DNA of 64,000 nt from Melaminivora jejuensis (GTDB lineage: Bacteria; Pseudomonadota; Gammaproteobacteria; Burkholderiales; Burkholderiaceae_C): positions 2,790,001 through 2,854,000 of the forward strand of contig NZ_JACWIJ010000002.1 in assembly GCF_017811175.1 (NCBI RefSeq). The letters run 5' to 3'. Of this stretch, positions 27,132 to 37,435 are shown in pieces (position 1 is the stretch's first letter; the number at the start of each line of letters is the position of its first letter). Below the pieces are notes generated by a model. The model was not told the origin of the DNA. It saw only the letters and a list, made by a program, of their open reading frames with translations, and made no database searches. Both the position numbers and the translations under genes were made by a program.

Positions 27132-27959
27132 CTACAGCTTGCCCCCGTCCCCCGCCTGCGGCTGCCAGCGCATCAGGCGCCGCTCGATGCGCCCGACTGC
27201 GGCGTCCAGCGCCAGGGCAAACGCCGTCAGCACCAGAATGCCGGCCATCACCGTGTTGATGTCGAAGCTGCCCTCGGCCTGCAGGATCAGATAGCCCACG
27301 CCCTGGCTGGAGCCCAGGTACTCGCCCACCACCGCACCGACGAAGGCCAGCCCCACGCTGGTATGCAGCGAACTGAAGACCCAGCTCGTGGCACTGGGCA
27401 GATAGACGTGGCGCAGCAACTGGCGCTGGCTGGCACCCAACATGCGGGCGTTGGCCAGGATGACCGGACTGACTTCGCGCACGCCCTGATAGACGTTGAA
27501 GAACACGATGAAGAACACCAGCGTCACGCCCAGGGCCACCTTGGAGCCTATCCCCAGGCCGAACCACACGGCAAAGATGGGCGCCAGGATGATGCGCGGC
27601 ATGGCGTTGGCCGCCTTGATGTAGGGCTCCAGGATGGCCGAGGCCATGGGCGACAGTGCCAGCCACAGCCCGCCCGCGAGGCCGCCGGCAGCGCCGATGG
27701 CAAAAGCCAGCACCGTCTCGGCCAGGGTGATCCACAGGTGCTGATAGATGTCGGCATCCACCACGAACCAGTCCCAGATGCGGCCAAGGATCTTCAAAGG
27801 CTCGCCGAAGAAGAACGCCGCCTGCTGGTCGTTGTCGAACATGAAGGGCGGGATCACGCCCGGTCGGGTCATGACGTGCCAGAACACGAACAGCGCCACC
27901 AGCAGCGCCAGTTGCCACAGCCGCAGCGTGGCCGGGCGCGGTTTGATCAGATTCCACAT
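27132..27959 (-). CDS. ABC transporter permease, nitrate/sulfonate/taurine type
   Basis: 275 residues with about six membrane helices. The EAA loop region reads LGASQRQLLRHVYLPSATSWV. The family is SsuC/TauC/ThiX-like. Third gene of a binding protein-ATPase-permease operon on the minus strand, starting 19 bases after the ATPase stop. Substrate not deducible; such systems import sulfonates, nitrate, pyrimidine precursors or aromatic acids. Confidence 0.9.
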   Translation of the reverse strand: MWNLIKPRPATLRLWQLALLVALFVFWHVMTRPGVIPPFMFDNDQQAAFFFGEPLKILGRIWDWFVVDADIYQHLWITLAETVLAFAIGAAGGLAGGLWLALSPMASAILEPYIKAANAMPRIILAPIFAVWFGLGIGSKVALGVTLVFFIVFFNVYQGVREVSPVILANARMLGASQRQLLRHVYLPSATSWVFSSLHTSVGLAFVGAVVGEYLGSSQGVGYLILQAEGSFDINTVMAGILVLTAFALALDAAVGRIERRLMRWQPQAGDGGKL

Positions 27960-27978
27960 GGTCGGACGGCGCCTGGCA

Positions 27979-28791
27979 TCAGGCGCGTTGCAGTTGTTGC
28001 TGATAGCCCTTGAGCACCTCGCCGCGCAGCTCGTCCCAGATGGCGGCGTGCAGCTCCAGGAAGCGCGGCGTCATCTTGACCTCGGCCACATCGCGCGGGC
28101 GCTCGATGTCGATCGCGAACTCGCCGATGGGGTGCGAGGCCGGGCCGGCACTCAGCACCACCACCCGGTCGCTCATGGCAATCGCCTCGTCCAGGTCGTG
28201 CGTGATGAACAGCACGGCCTTTTTCTTGCGCTGCCACAGGTCGAGCACCTCGTTTTCCATGAGCTGGCGCGTCTGGATGTCCAGTGCCGAGAACGGCTCG
28301 TCCATCAGGATGATGTCCGGATCCATGACTAGGGTCTGTGCCAGGCTGGCGCGCTTTCTCATGCCGCCGCTCATCTGGTGCGGGTAGCGATCCCCGAAAT
28401 TGCCCAGGCCCACGCGGCGCAGCCAATCCTGCGCCTGGGCGCGGGCCTGCGCCTCGGGCACGCCGCGAAACTGCAGACCTGCCATGACGTTGGCCAGCGC
28501 CGTGCGCCAGGGCATCAGGCTCTCGGCCTGGAACATGTAGCCGGCGCGGGCGTTGATGCCCGCCAGCGGCTGGCCGAAGATGCGCACGCTGCCCTCGGAA
28601 GGCACCAGCAGGCCAGCAGCCACGTTGAGCAGCGTGCTCTTGCCGCAGCCCGTGGGGCCGACCACGCTGACGAACTCGCCGGCGCCCACGGTCAGGTTCA
28701 CGCCGCTCACGGCGGTGTAGCGCTGAGCGGGGTTGTCCTTGTCCGTGAAGGTGCAGGCCACCCCTTGCAACTCGATTGCGGGAGCACTCAT
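27979..28791 (-). CDS. ABC transporter ATPase, nitrate/sulfonate/taurine type
   Basis: 270 residues. Walker A GPTGCGKST, Q-loop FQAESLMPW, signature MSGGMRKRASLAQ, Walker B ILMDEPFSALD, and H-loop THDLDEA are all intact. The start was set at MSAPAIELQGV just before the family core; it overlaps nothing, and the upstream binding-protein stop lies 8 bases away. Powers the permease encoded next. Confidence 0.92.
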   Translation of the reverse strand: MSAPAIELQGVACTFTDKDNPAQRYTAVSGVNLTVGAGEFVSVVGPTGCGKSTLLNVAAGLLVPSEGSVRIFGQPLAGINARAGYMFQAESLMPWRTALANVMAGLQFRGVPEAQARAQAQDWLRRVGLGNFGDRYPHQMSGGMRKRASLAQTLVMDPDIILMDEPFSALDIQTRQLMENEVLDLWQRKKKAVLFITHDLDEAIAMSDRVVVLSAGPASHPIGEFAIDIERPRDVAEVKMTPRFLELHAAIWDELRGEVLKGYQQQLQRA

Positions 28792-28798
28792 TGCCACA

Positions 28799-29824
28799 TC
28801 AGCCCTTGGGATATTTGGCGTTGGCCCGCTTGACGAAATCGTTGGTGTAGATGGCATTCAGATCGACCTTCTTCGCATCCAGCTTGGGGTCGATGCTGGC
28901 CAGCGCGCGCAGGGCCGTCTCCGCGCCCCTGGCCGGGAAGCTGCCATCGGGCGACAAGGCCTGCTTGGACGCCAGAAAGCCATCGATATAGACGGCCCGG
29001 TCACCCAGCAGATAGCTCTCGGGCACGACCTTGATGACATCGCCGCCGCCGGCCTGCTGGATCCACTTGTCGGCACGCACCATGGCGTTGACCAGGGCCT
29101 GGGCAGTGTTGGGGTTCTTGTCCAGGAACGGCTGCGGCGCGTACAGGCAGCCCGCCGGCATGGGGCCGCCGAAGACCTGCTCGGCCTCGTCCATCTTGCG
29201 CGTGTCGGAGACGATCCGCAGGTCGCCCGAGCGCACCAGCAGCGTGATGACCGGATCAAGGTTGGAGATGGCATCGATCTGCCCGGCACGCATCGCCGCC
29301 ACGGCGCCATTGCCCGCACCCACGCCGACGAAGCTCACATCGCTGGGTTTGAGCCCCGCCTTGGCCAGCACGTAGTTGGCGACGATGTTGGTGGAGCTGC
29401 CCGGCGCCGTGACGCCAATCTTCTTGCCCTTGAGATCAGCCACCGACTTGAAGTTGGGCATGGTCTTGGGGTTGACGCCCAGCACCACCTGGGGCGCTGC
29501 GCCCTGCAGCACGAAGGCGCGCATGGGTTGGCCCTTGAGCTGCATGTTGATGGTGTGCTCGAACGCGCCCGAGACCACATCGGCACTGCCACCCACCACC
29601 GCCTGCAGCGCGCGCGAGCCGCCGGCAAAGTCCACGATGGTGACGTCCAGCCCCTCATCCTTGAAGTAGCCCTGCTGCTCGGCAATGGTCAGCGGCAGGT
29701 AATAGAACAGGTTCTTGCCGCCGACAGCGATGGTCAGCTTGGTTTTTTCCAGCGTCTGGGCGAAGCTGAAGCCGGGCAGCGCGGCAGCGGCCAGGCCGCC
29801 GGCGATAAGGTGGCGTCGTTGCAT
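28799..29824 (-). CDS. NMT1/SsuA-type ABC substrate-binding protein
   Basis: 341 residues, periplasmic. Begins MQRRHLIAGGLAAAALPGFSF, a signal with paired arginines (possibly Tat), cleaved near FAQ. Type 2 binding fold with AEQQGYFKDEGLDVTIVDF and GKKIGVTAPGSSTN. The ribosome site AGGAGAG is 6-12 bases upstream. First gene of the ABC operon running to 27132. The mature protein is only a distant relative of the lipoprotein at 7656. Confidence 0.9.
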   Translation of the reverse strand: MQRRHLIAGGLAAAALPGFSFAQTLEKTKLTIAVGGKNLFYYLPLTIAEQQGYFKDEGLDVTIVDFAGGSRALQAVVGGSADVVSGAFEHTINMQLKGQPMRAFVLQGAAPQVVLGVNPKTMPNFKSVADLKGKKIGVTAPGSSTNIVANYVLAKAGLKPSDVSFVGVGAGNGAVAAMRAGQIDAISNLDPVITLLVRSGDLRIVSDTRKMDEAEQVFGGPMPAGCLYAPQPFLDKNPNTAQALVNAMVRADKWIQQAGGGDVIKVVPESYLLGDRAVYIDGFLASKQALSPDGSFPARGAETALRALASIDPKLDAKKVDLNAIYTNDFVKRANAKYPKG

Positions 29825-29916: not shown

Positions 29917-30545
29917 TTGACATCCTCCCCCGCCTAAAGGCGTGGGATTCCTACCGCGCTCATTGCAGGCGCAACGCCTGAACCAGTCGCCTCGGCGGGT
30001 TCCTGCTTCACCGAGGCTGCACGCTTGGCCCTTGCGGGCCTTGCACGGCTGACGTCCTCTCCACAGGCTGCTACGCGGTGTCCCCGCGCCAGTATGTTGA
30101 TCGCGCCGGTGTGATCGGCGTGGCCTTCGCGCCCGCATTCGATGCACCTGAACACGGCCTGCGCCCTGCGGTTGTCCGCGCTCACGCAGCCGCACTCGGG
30201 GCAGGTTCTGCTGGTGTTGTGCGGCGGCACGGCAATCAGCATTCCCCCAGTCCAGGCCAAGGCGTTTCAGAGCCGTTGCGCCATGCGGTCAGGTGCTTGG
30301 CCAGCGCCACGTAGCCGATGAATTTGCCGCCCGCTTCATGGTTGGCCTTTTGCAGCGCCAGCGCCTTGTTGAAGACGAAACGGCACGCCCCGGCAAAGCG
30401 GCGCATGGCAAGCGCTTGCCCGCCGTTGGGGCGAAGCTCGAATTTGAAGGCTTGCAGGCGTTGCATACCTGTATGAATAGACAGTTATTTCAGGACGCCT
30501 TCGGTGTCCGCGCTTTCCTTCCCAGCCCTGAAGGGCGGGCTTTGA
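29917..30545 (-). mobile_element. IS200/IS605-type element with internally deleted tnpB
   Basis: About 629 bases. The right end, just after tnpB, has the hairpin CCCCCGCC-TAAA-GGCGTGGG flanked by TTGACATCCT, and the left end has GCCC-TGAA-GGGC followed by GGGCTTTGA, both typical of subterminal structures of this family. There is no tnpA and no terminal inverted repeat, as expected. Only the tnpB relic lies between. Non-autonomous; any movement would need a TnpA from elsewhere. Exact ends are estimates. Confidence 0.75.
29934..30466 (-). pseudogene. tnpB: tnpB (RNA-guided nuclease family), centre deleted
   Basis: The N-terminal 65 or so residues (MQRLQAFKFELRPNGGQ, AGACRFVFNKALALQK, AKHLTAWRNGSETPW) are joined out of frame to the C-terminal zinc-ribbon part (AWTGGMLIAVPPHNTSRTCP, ECGCVSADNRR, FRCIECGREGHADHTGAINI). 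Intact TnpB is about 370-400 residues, so roughly 200 or more residues with most RuvC catalytic residues are missing. The join is at a short shared CTTGG near 30258-30266. The 3' end and right-end hairpin, which in this family encode the guide RNA scaffold, are retained. Confidence 0.85.
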
Positions 30546-30630: not shown

Positions 30631-33347
<2,717 letters not shown>

Positions 33348-33351
<4 letters not shown>

Positions 33352-33416
33352 GGGGGAACGCACACGGCAGCGACAGCAGGAATGGAGGCAGTGGTTGCAG
33401 TACCAGTGGAAGTCAT
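33348..33416 (-). CDS. 22-codon frame at the 5' end of metH: coupled leader peptide or true N-terminus
   Basis: An ATG with a well-placed AGGTGA (5-6 bases upstream) opens a frame [20 protein letters not shown] followed by PP, whose TGA overlaps the metH ATG (CCCCCATGA). Two readings fit. It may be a leader peptide that couples ribosomes into metH. Alternatively one C is missing from the CCCCC run and the real MetH begins here, reading ...[11 protein letters not shown]. The second is attractive because similar run-length errors occur elsewhere in this window. Confidence 0.5.
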
Positions 33417-33419
33417 CAG

Positions 33420-33458
33420 GCTCACCTGTGGGGTCGATATCAAGGGGTACAGGTGAGC
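33420..33458 (-). promoter_or_regulatory. Ribosome-site-masking hairpin in the metH leader
   Basis: A perfect 10-base inverted repeat, GCTCACCTGT with ACAGGTGAGC, separated by 19 bases. Its 3' arm contains the AGGTGA ribosome site for the ATG at 33416, so folding would hide it. It sits 27 bases downstream of the SAH riboswitch and is a natural expression platform for it. Confidence 0.65.
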
Positions 33459-33485
33459 GTCGTTGATGGGTTGTGGTCACGCCCT

Positions 33486-33555
33486 GCCAAGCCTGACGGT
33501 CTGCCGCTCGACACACAGGACAAGACAAAAGGCAGCCGCTGCAACGCTCCTTGGC
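33486..33555 (-). promoter_or_regulatory. S-adenosylhomocysteine (SAH) riboswitch upstream of metH
   Basis: On the minus strand the segment opens GCCAAGGAGCGTTGCAGCGG and closes CCGTCAGGCTTGGC. Outer stem GCCAAG/CTTGGC, conserved GGAGCGTTGCAGC bulge strand, second stem CGG-CTGCC/GGCAG-A-CCG enclosing a 25-base loop, and the conserved CAGGCTTGG 3' strand match the SAH riboswitch pattern. The class is known upstream of ahcY, metH and metF in proteobacteria and switches genes on when SAH accumulates. Downstream, a hairpin masks the ribosome site. Confidence 0.8.
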
Positions 33556-33636
33556 GGGGAAAGCGGGTCAAAGTGGGGGATTCTAGGAAGACTGCAGCAA
33601 CCCCGGGCGCAGCAGCGCATCGCAAGCTTGCCGTCA

Positions 33637-33813
33637 GGCTACGCGGGCAGCTTCTATTCCCAAGAAGCAGACGGCAAAAGAAATTACGCCAGCCAGCAAT
33701 TCCCGCTGCACTTCATCTCGCTCGACACCAAGCCGCAATCGCGCTTCCCGCTGGCATTTGCTTATCAAGGCTCGTATTACGGCACGGCCAAAATTTGGGT
33801 TTGCGCGCGCTGA
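33637..33813 (+). other. Orphan coding-like fragment between metH and a lipoprotein gene
   Basis: About 59 codons ending in TGA: SQEADGKRNYASQQFPLHFI, then SLDTKPQSRFPLAFAYQGSY and GTAKIWVCAR. Codon choice looks coding but AT content is higher than in neighbours, and no start codon with a ribosome site is visible. Probably the 3' stump of a lost gene. The rest of the 33556-33911 gap holds no other recognisable feature. Confidence 0.35.
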
Positions 33814-33911
33814 TCAGCCAAGCAGCGCTGGCCTGGGCTGGCCGGCATTGGCTGGCGCTGGCCTGCGCCAGGGGCGCGCTACATTCAGGCCTTCCCTCCA
33901 AGGCTTGCTCC

Positions 33912-34670
33912 ATGCGTACACCTCCATTTTTTCTGCGTATGTCCGTGGCTGCTGCGGCTGCCGCTACCTTGCTGCTCAGCGCCTGCGGCGGCGGCAGCAG
34001 CAGCGACGATGACCCGTCCACCGGCCCGCCGCCAGCCAGGCCCATCGCCGGGGCCGAGGGCCGCTGGGCGGGCCGCGCCTCGACCGGCTATGACGTGCTG
34101 CTGACCATCCTCGACACGGGCGAGACCTGGGGCGTCTATACGCGCGGGCCGGTCATCCACGGTGCGTTTCATGGCTCCAGCAGCTCCTCCGGCGGGCAGT
34201 TGCGCGGCTCGGCGGCGGTGGTGGACTACGAGCGCGCCGGGCAGGTGCATTCGTCGCTCTACGGCGGCAGCTATGTGCCGCAACGCCAATTGGAGGCAGG
34301 CTTCGTCTTTGATGTCTTCTCCGGCACCTATGTGCCCGGCTACGAGCGCACGGCACCCGTCGCTGCACTGGCTGGCAGCTATGTCGGCAGCGTGGGCGGC
34401 TGGCCGGCGCCGCTGGCGCTGACCATCCATGCCGACGGCGGCCTGATGTCCACCGAGCCCACGCCAGCCTGCCTGGTGCGCGGCTCCGTCGGGGTGCGTC
34501 CCGGTGGGCGCGGCGTATATGACCTGCGCGCGTCGTTCACCGGCGATGGCTGCCCCCTGCCGCACGGCACTGCCGTGGCGGGCATTGCGCTGCTCGATGG
34601 CACGCGATTGACCATTACCAGCGTGGCCCCGTCGGCGGTGGACTTCTTCGTCTTCCAAGGCGGGCGCTGA
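33912..34670 (+). CDS. Hypothetical lipoprotein
   Basis: 252 residues. Signal peptide with lipobox LLSACG (Cys about residue 24), a [11 protein letters not shown] spacer, then a beta-rich body with repeated short segments ([44 protein letters not shown]). Comamonadaceae genomes contain many such surface or periplasmic lipoproteins of unknown role. No catalytic motif seen. It lies 67 bases before the 3-methyladenine glycosylase on the same strand. Confidence 0.75.
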
Positions 34671-36128: not shown

Positions 36129-37435
36129 ATGTCCAGCCACTCTTCTTCCTCGTCCAACCTCCAGCACGCGCTGCCCTCCTACCTCGACCCCGCCCACCTC
36201 GGCCCCTGGGGCGTGTATCTGCAGCAGATCGACCGCGTCACGCCCTATCTGGGCAACTTGGCACGCTGGGTGGAGACCTTGAAGCGCCCCAAGCGTGCGC
36301 TGATCGTCGATGTGCCCATCGAGATGGACGACGGCACGATTGCCCACTTCGAGGGCTACCGCGTGCAGCACAACACCAGCCGCGGCCCGGGCAAGGGCGG
36401 CGTGCGCTTTCACCAGGACGTGACGCTGTCGGAGGTCATGGCGCTGTCGGCCTGGATGAGCATCAAGAACGCGGCGGTGAACGTGCCCTACGGCGGCGCC
36501 AAGGGCGGCATCCGCGTCGATCCGAGAAAGCTCTCGCGCGGCGAGCTGGAGCGCCTGACGCGGCGCTACACCAGCGAGATCGGCATCATCATCGGCCCGA
36601 CCAAGGACATCCCGGCGCCCGACGTGAACACCAACGGCCAGATCATGGCCTGGATGATGGACACGTATTCCATGAACGTGGGCGAGACCTCGACCGGCGT
36701 GGTCACCGGCAAGCCCATCGACCTGGGCGGCTCGCTGGGCCGCCTGGAGGCTACCGGACGTGGCGTGTTCACTGTGGGGGTGGAGGCGGCGCGGCATATC
36801 GGCCTGGAGATCGGGGGCGCGCGCGTGGCCGTGCAGGGCTTTGGCAACGTCGGCGGCACGGCGGGCCGGCTGTTTGCCGAGGCTGGCGCCCGGGTGGTGG
36901 CGGTGCAGGATCACACCGGCAGCGTGTTCAACGATGGCGGGCTGGATGTGCCGGCGCTGCTGGCCCATGTGCAGGAGACGGGCGGCGTGGGCGGCTTTGC
37001 CGGTGCCGAAGCCATGGCCAGCGAGGAGTTCTGGGGGTGCCGTGCGACATCCTGATCCCGGCAGCGCTGGAGGGGCAGATCACGGCCGCCAACGCAGGCC
37101 GCATCCGCGCGCGCATGGTCATCGAGGGCGCCAACGGCCCGACCACGCCCGAGGCCGACGACATCCTGCAGGGCAATGGTGTGCTGGTGCTGCCGGACGT
37201 GATCTCCAATGCCGGCGGCGTCACCGTGAGCTATTTCGAGTGGGTGCAGGACTTCACCAGTTTTTTCTGGACGGAGGACGAGATCAACGACCGGCTGGTG
37301 CGCATCATGCAAAACGCCTTTGCTGGCGTCTGGCAGGTGGCGCAGGAGCACCAGGTGTCCTTGCGCACCGCGACCTTCATCGTGGCCTGCAAGCGCATCC
37401 TGCACGCACGCGAGATGCGCGGGCTGTATCCCTGA
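36129..37435 (+). pseudogene. Glutamate dehydrogenase family enzyme, one-base frameshift
   Basis: Glu/Leu dehydrogenase superfamily, converting glutamate and 2-oxoglutarate. The N-terminal domain is intact ([19 protein letters not shown] with catalytic Lys, [27 protein letters not shown]), followed by the Rossmann loop [15 protein letters not shown]. After SEEFWG the frame breaks at a G5 run (~37033-37037), where one more G would continue [20 protein letters not shown] to the correct end at 37435. As read, the product stops early at 37055. It may be a read error. Confidence 0.85.

Follow-up and report, generated by a model that had tools for sequence, protein, structure and literature searches.

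An SAH riboswitch and a likely ribosome-site-gating strand in the leader of a split metH of Melaminivora jejuensis

The metH locus and its separated homocysteine domain

The window, i.e., the whole stretch of 64,000 nucleotides of Melaminivora jejuensis DNA that we analysed, carries on its minus strand a 906-codon open reading frame (30631..33351) matching positions 328-1182 of the 1182 in the metH model TIGR02082. Pfam domains identify it as the large half of MetH, with the pterin-binding, B12-binding and activation domains and without the homocysteine domain; its closest named relative is the protein of Oryzisolibacter propanilivorax (93% over 200 residues). The homocysteine-methyltransferase domain (PF02574) has a single match in the genome, a separate gene at C2:2887283-2888209 on the plus strand. 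This places it about 64 kb from the riboswitch described below (C2:2823448-2823558) and on the opposite strand. A large half devoid of the homocysteine domain and a separate homocysteine-methyltransferase gene together make this a split MetH. The initial annotation was thus right in calling metH split; its view of that gene as the one directly controlled fared less well, because the ATG at the masked ribosome site lies out of the metH frame here.

Downstream of metH, on the same strand, a 108-codon open reading frame (29934-30260) contains a Cas12f1-like TNB domain (PF07282) and appears to be the tail end of a transposon protein of the TnpB/OrfB type. Beyond it lies an ABC transporter set (27132-29824) with an NMT1-like binding protein and, from a reading of the open reading frames, an ATPase and a permease.

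An RF01057 aptamer in the metH leader

A cmscan search of the metH leader returned a match to the SAH riboswitch family RF01057 on the minus strand at 33558-33448, covering model positions 1-78 of 78 with 51.7 bits against a gathering score of 37 (E 1.2e-6 when the 64 kb window is searched, and 5.8e-9 for a stretch of 301 bases). Given this E-value, the coverage of the full model and the fact that RF01057 is the sole family among the 4227 scanned to reach its own gathering score in the window, the match is, judged on sequence, more than chance. The family assignment made from the letters in the initial annotation was thereby confirmed. The SAM/SAH riboswitch RF01727 stayed below its cut-off in the same Rfam scan of the 64 kb window. 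The aptamer (33448..33558) occupies the leader of a SAM-cycle gene, metH (ATG at 33351), on the same strand. Scans of 33300-34000 found neither a sigma-70-like promoter nor a terminator.

The conserved elements of the family can be placed base by base. P1 is formed by GCCAAG (33550..33555) and CTTGGC (33486..33491), both assigned from the sequence and the RF01057 structure line. P2 pairs GCGG (33536..33539) with CCGT (33496..33499), as given by the RF01057 match and by identical pairing in the minimum-energy fold, and is extended by an insert of about 33 bases that the model lacks. P4 is formed by GAGCGT (33544..33549) and ACGCTC (33455..33460), both backed by a pair tally over 117 metH leaders and the 3' strand also by the RF01057 match. 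The core GGAGCG-TGCA and the 3' CGCTC strand are present, and 6/6 P4 pairs are complementary in the window. The 70-base element of the initial annotation, opening with GCCAAGGAGCGTTGCAGCGG at 33555 and closing with CCGTCAGGCTTGGC at 33486, has exact coordinates; as an outline of the aptamer it is too short, since it stops at P1 while the RF01057 match runs on to 33448.

Concerning the ligand, the genome's two RF01057 copies precede ahcY and metH; both are methyl-cycle genes, a setting that SAM or another ligand would also suit. Nevertheless, the full-length match is to a family whose complex with SAH has been solved and for which the available part of PMC7057144 gives SAM binding as roughly 1,000-fold weaker. 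Hence, a ligand other than SAH is extremely improbable.

A ribosome-site hairpin that shares a strand with P4

The ribosome site AGGTGA lies at 33427-33422, ahead of an ATG at 33416 on the minus strand. Twenty-seven bases after the 70-base element there is, exactly where it had been described, a perfect 10-base inverted repeat with arms 19 bases apart. Its 5' arm, the anti-ribosome-site strand GCTCACCTGT, spans 33449..33458, and its 3' arm ACAGGTGAGC, which contains the AGGTGAG ribosome site, spans 33420..33429; both are defined by the sequence, the comparison of leaders and the hairpin fold. Folded alone, the hairpin reaches -17.2 kcal/mol, whereas its shuffles average -6.73 (z -4.99) and 0/200 of them are as stable. 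The stability of the whole 156-base leader in a pseudoknot-free fold is not unusual (z -1.05; 32/200 shuffles as good). This fold contains P1, P2 and the hairpin, and is of a type that cannot represent competition by P4.

The interval between the 70-base element and the hairpin was considered as a mere spacer and this was ruled out, as part of the RF01057 match falls inside it. Indeed, the last four bases of the P4 3' strand (33458-33455) are also part of the hairpin 5' arm. Accordingly, of the layout first proposed, the hairpin over the ribosome site stands, whereas the 27-base separation from the aptamer gives way to a P4 3' strand that doubles as the 5' arm. As these four bases are common to both, P4 and the hairpin are mutually exclusive, which would give the logic of an ON switch. 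The anatomy agrees with such a switch, the ON direction itself, like SAH as the ligand, being inferred from the known family.

Conservation of P4 and the hairpin in related metH leaders

We then compared metH leaders, keeping 195 distinct ones from 232 records, many of which lack a metH start. The GGAGCG-TGC motif is present in 118/195, and 117 of these were parsed (L205 was left out). Of the 18 leaders of the family in which no motif was parsed, 3 score above the RF01057 cut-off, and a fourth, L205, matches below it; these four were counted as aptamer-bearing in the GGTGA comparison below and are absent from the pair tallies. P4 pairs 1-5 are complementary in 117/117 parsed leaders, partly by construction as the search motifs contain them. 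Pair 6, which is free of the motif, occurs as TA in 71, TG in 25, CG in 20 and TC in 1 of the 117, and never as C-A.

For the hairpin, we used the 75 leaders in which no more than 16 bases separate a GGTG-like site from an ATG. In 67/75 of them, the longest stem without interruption that the P4 strand can form with the ribosome site has at least 8 pairs. The pair tally covers 73 leaders, as two of the 75 lack GTGA and were left out. Outside the selected core, 71.7% of the cells of pairs 8-10 hold complementary bases; reshuffled partners average 62.9% and never exceed 68.9% in 500 shuffles, and slid partners give 27-57%; pair 8 is seen as TA, CG and AT, and pair 9 as GC, TA and AT. The core pairs 1-7 are 96.3% complementary versus 96.1% in shuffles, with no excess because they barely vary. 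At the two ends, pair 1 is complementary in 56/73 leaders and pair 10 in merely 26/73. Thus, the covariation across related metH leaders that the initial annotation had proposed as a check is found in both P4 and the hairpin, as paired changes outside the ribosome site.

These tallies bear on whether the hairpin might be a by-product, with GGTGAG merely happening to complement an invariant aptamer strand and no switching taking place. The CGCTC of the 5' arm is indeed fixed by the aptamer, and 5/10 pairs hardly vary and so yield no covariation signal. Such a coincidence is nonetheless very unlikely, as pairs 8 and 9, which flank the core, covary to an extent that none of the 500 shuffles reaches. 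Moreover, the GGTGA before the start tracks the aptamer: it precedes an in-frame start in 63/91 family metH leaders with the aptamer versus 1/14 without it, a comparison confounded by kinship.

A distance of more than 16 bases separates the GGTG-like site from the first following ATG in 38/117 leaders, and for 4 leaders the survey found no such ATG. The former group, with L045, L199, L209 and L216 as examples, often has the P4-pairing GGTGAG strand 30-70 bases from the first ATG. At such distances there is no simple masked ribosome site. Leaders with a far or absent ATG therefore point to other expression platforms, and the simple scheme misses some relatives.

An apparent frame break ahead of metH

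The ATG at 33416 and the metH ATG at 33351 are 65 bases apart and out of frame. As a consequence, in the sequence as written the masked site directly starts a 22-codon open reading frame (33349..33416, minus strand), whose TGA overlaps the metH ATG as ATGA. Our survey showed that this is exceptional: an in-frame ATG lies 5-20 bases from the ribosome site in 74/75 leaders, the sole exception being the M. jejuensis leader itself. A frame break common to the family was thus ruled out (0/74 other comparable leaders); L056 and L133, at first candidates for further out-of-frame cases, proved to carry an ATG in frame four bases farther on.

Taken at face value, the break would mean that the riboswitch controls a 22-codon leader peptide, with metH reached by coupling or re-initiation at ATGA. 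ATGA is a classic overlap for translational coupling, and near the ribosome site no in-frame start is present. Yet the 74 comparable leaders are all in frame. The run of C ahead of the metH-core ATG, 5 bases long here, has 6, 7, 7 and 3 bases in four genus relatives, each of them in frame.

The assembly itself provides further evidence on this point. We surveyed about 464 kb of it against two genus relatives, G004 (720 kb) and G003 (400 kb), counting genes with an internal frame change. In this genome such changes affect 15/127 of the G004 genes and 5/29 of the G003 genes. In the control directions the counts are 1/41 (G004 genes in G003), 3/116 (genes of this genome in G004) and 2/34 (genes of this genome in G003). 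Some of the 15 may be gene boundaries or real pseudogenes; a looser survey with gene boundaries mixed in (28/184 versus 7/195) was replaced by these stricter rules. As many as 12/15 of the changes adjoin a G/C run of at least 4, compared to 23% of random 55-base pieces that have one. One of the 15 lies near metH: glutamate dehydrogenase (36129-37435) is spread over two frames, matching NF040817 positions 6-284 and 284-417, with a break at a GGGGG run and the junction near 37030-37045. G/C runs of at least 6 number 51 in 464 kb here against 161 in 720 kb of G004, about half the density. On the other hand, the density here equals that of G003 (47 in 400 kb), which speaks for a real break and leaves the homopolymer evidence mixed.

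Taking these points together, a real frame break is unlikely. A shift in this species from controlling metH directly to controlling a 22-codon leader peptide that hands ribosomes on at ATGA is, if anything, harder to credit. Most likely, going by the 74 comparable relatives in frame and the 15/127 genes with an internal frame change, the break at metH is a base-calling error, though this falls short of proof.

Phyletic distribution and relationship to known riboswitch systems

RF01057 is present in 392/397 genomes of the host's family and in 5/5 of the genus, which have two copies apiece. The second copy of M. jejuensis, at C2:3593731, precedes ahcY. In 28 ahcY leaders (L001 and 27 among L003-L041), a P4-adjacent CCACGC or CCCGC has a potential pairing partner downstream, GCGTGG or GCGGG, with TT after it. 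The resulting stem averages 5.0 pairs versus 2.4 in shuffles, with 8/28 leaders having no more than 3 pairs or a chance-like 4, and the ahcY start has its own ribosome site farther downstream. From their sequences, the copies before ahcY and before metH seem to differ in their expression platforms.

The metH copy shares with RF01057 in general the full-length model match, the P1, P2 and P4 strands and a position before a methyl-cycle gene; it differs in the extra bases in P2 and in a served ATG that is out of frame in the assembly. The family's primary paper is reportedly that of Wang et al. (2008, Mol Cell). The SAH riboswitch work of Wang et al. 2008 is cited in PMC2864571, which, in its available text, reports the SAM/SAH riboswitch RF01727 from Rhodobacterales and upstream of metK only. 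That riboswitch likewise controls a methyl-cycle gene, with a different aptamer. A closer precedent is the SAH regulon of the Comamonadaceae, in which MetH is listed as a Comamonadaceae-specific member (Leyn et al. 2014, PMC4239095, in the portion available). Here the riboswitch, the target gene and the family are all the same, and because MetH was already listed in 2014, an SAH riboswitch before metH is a known and ordinary arrangement in the host's family. In contrast, the strand shared by P4 and the ribosome-site hairpin seen here is without description in that portion of the regulon study. We found none in the literature searched, as far as its available text goes, a search that left the 2008 primary paper outside its scope; hence, the overlap may already be in print.

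Proposed mechanism and its implications

In the reading we favor, an RF01057-type SAH riboswitch very probably activates translation of the large half of MetH, with the frame break probably an error. When SAH is scarce, the anti-ribosome-site strand would pair with the ribosome-site strand and hide the ribosome site in the hairpin. When SAH is present, ACGCTC would be held in P4 with GAGCGT, the hairpin would lose its 5' arm and the ribosome site would be freed. Should the frame break be real, control would pass to metH via coupling at ATGA, and the leader peptide would add one more step, coupling, to the path from SAH sensing to methionine synthase.

At the level of this genome, a known SAH switch and a likely gating strand can now be placed on a specific metH leader. 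The metH start in the assembly is probably misread, so that automatic annotation would pick a wrong ATG, cut off from its own ribosome site. At the level of the family, the same pairing of the P4 strand with the ribosome site is found repeatedly in the metH leaders of the host's relatives, and offers a directly testable reading of how these leaders may work.
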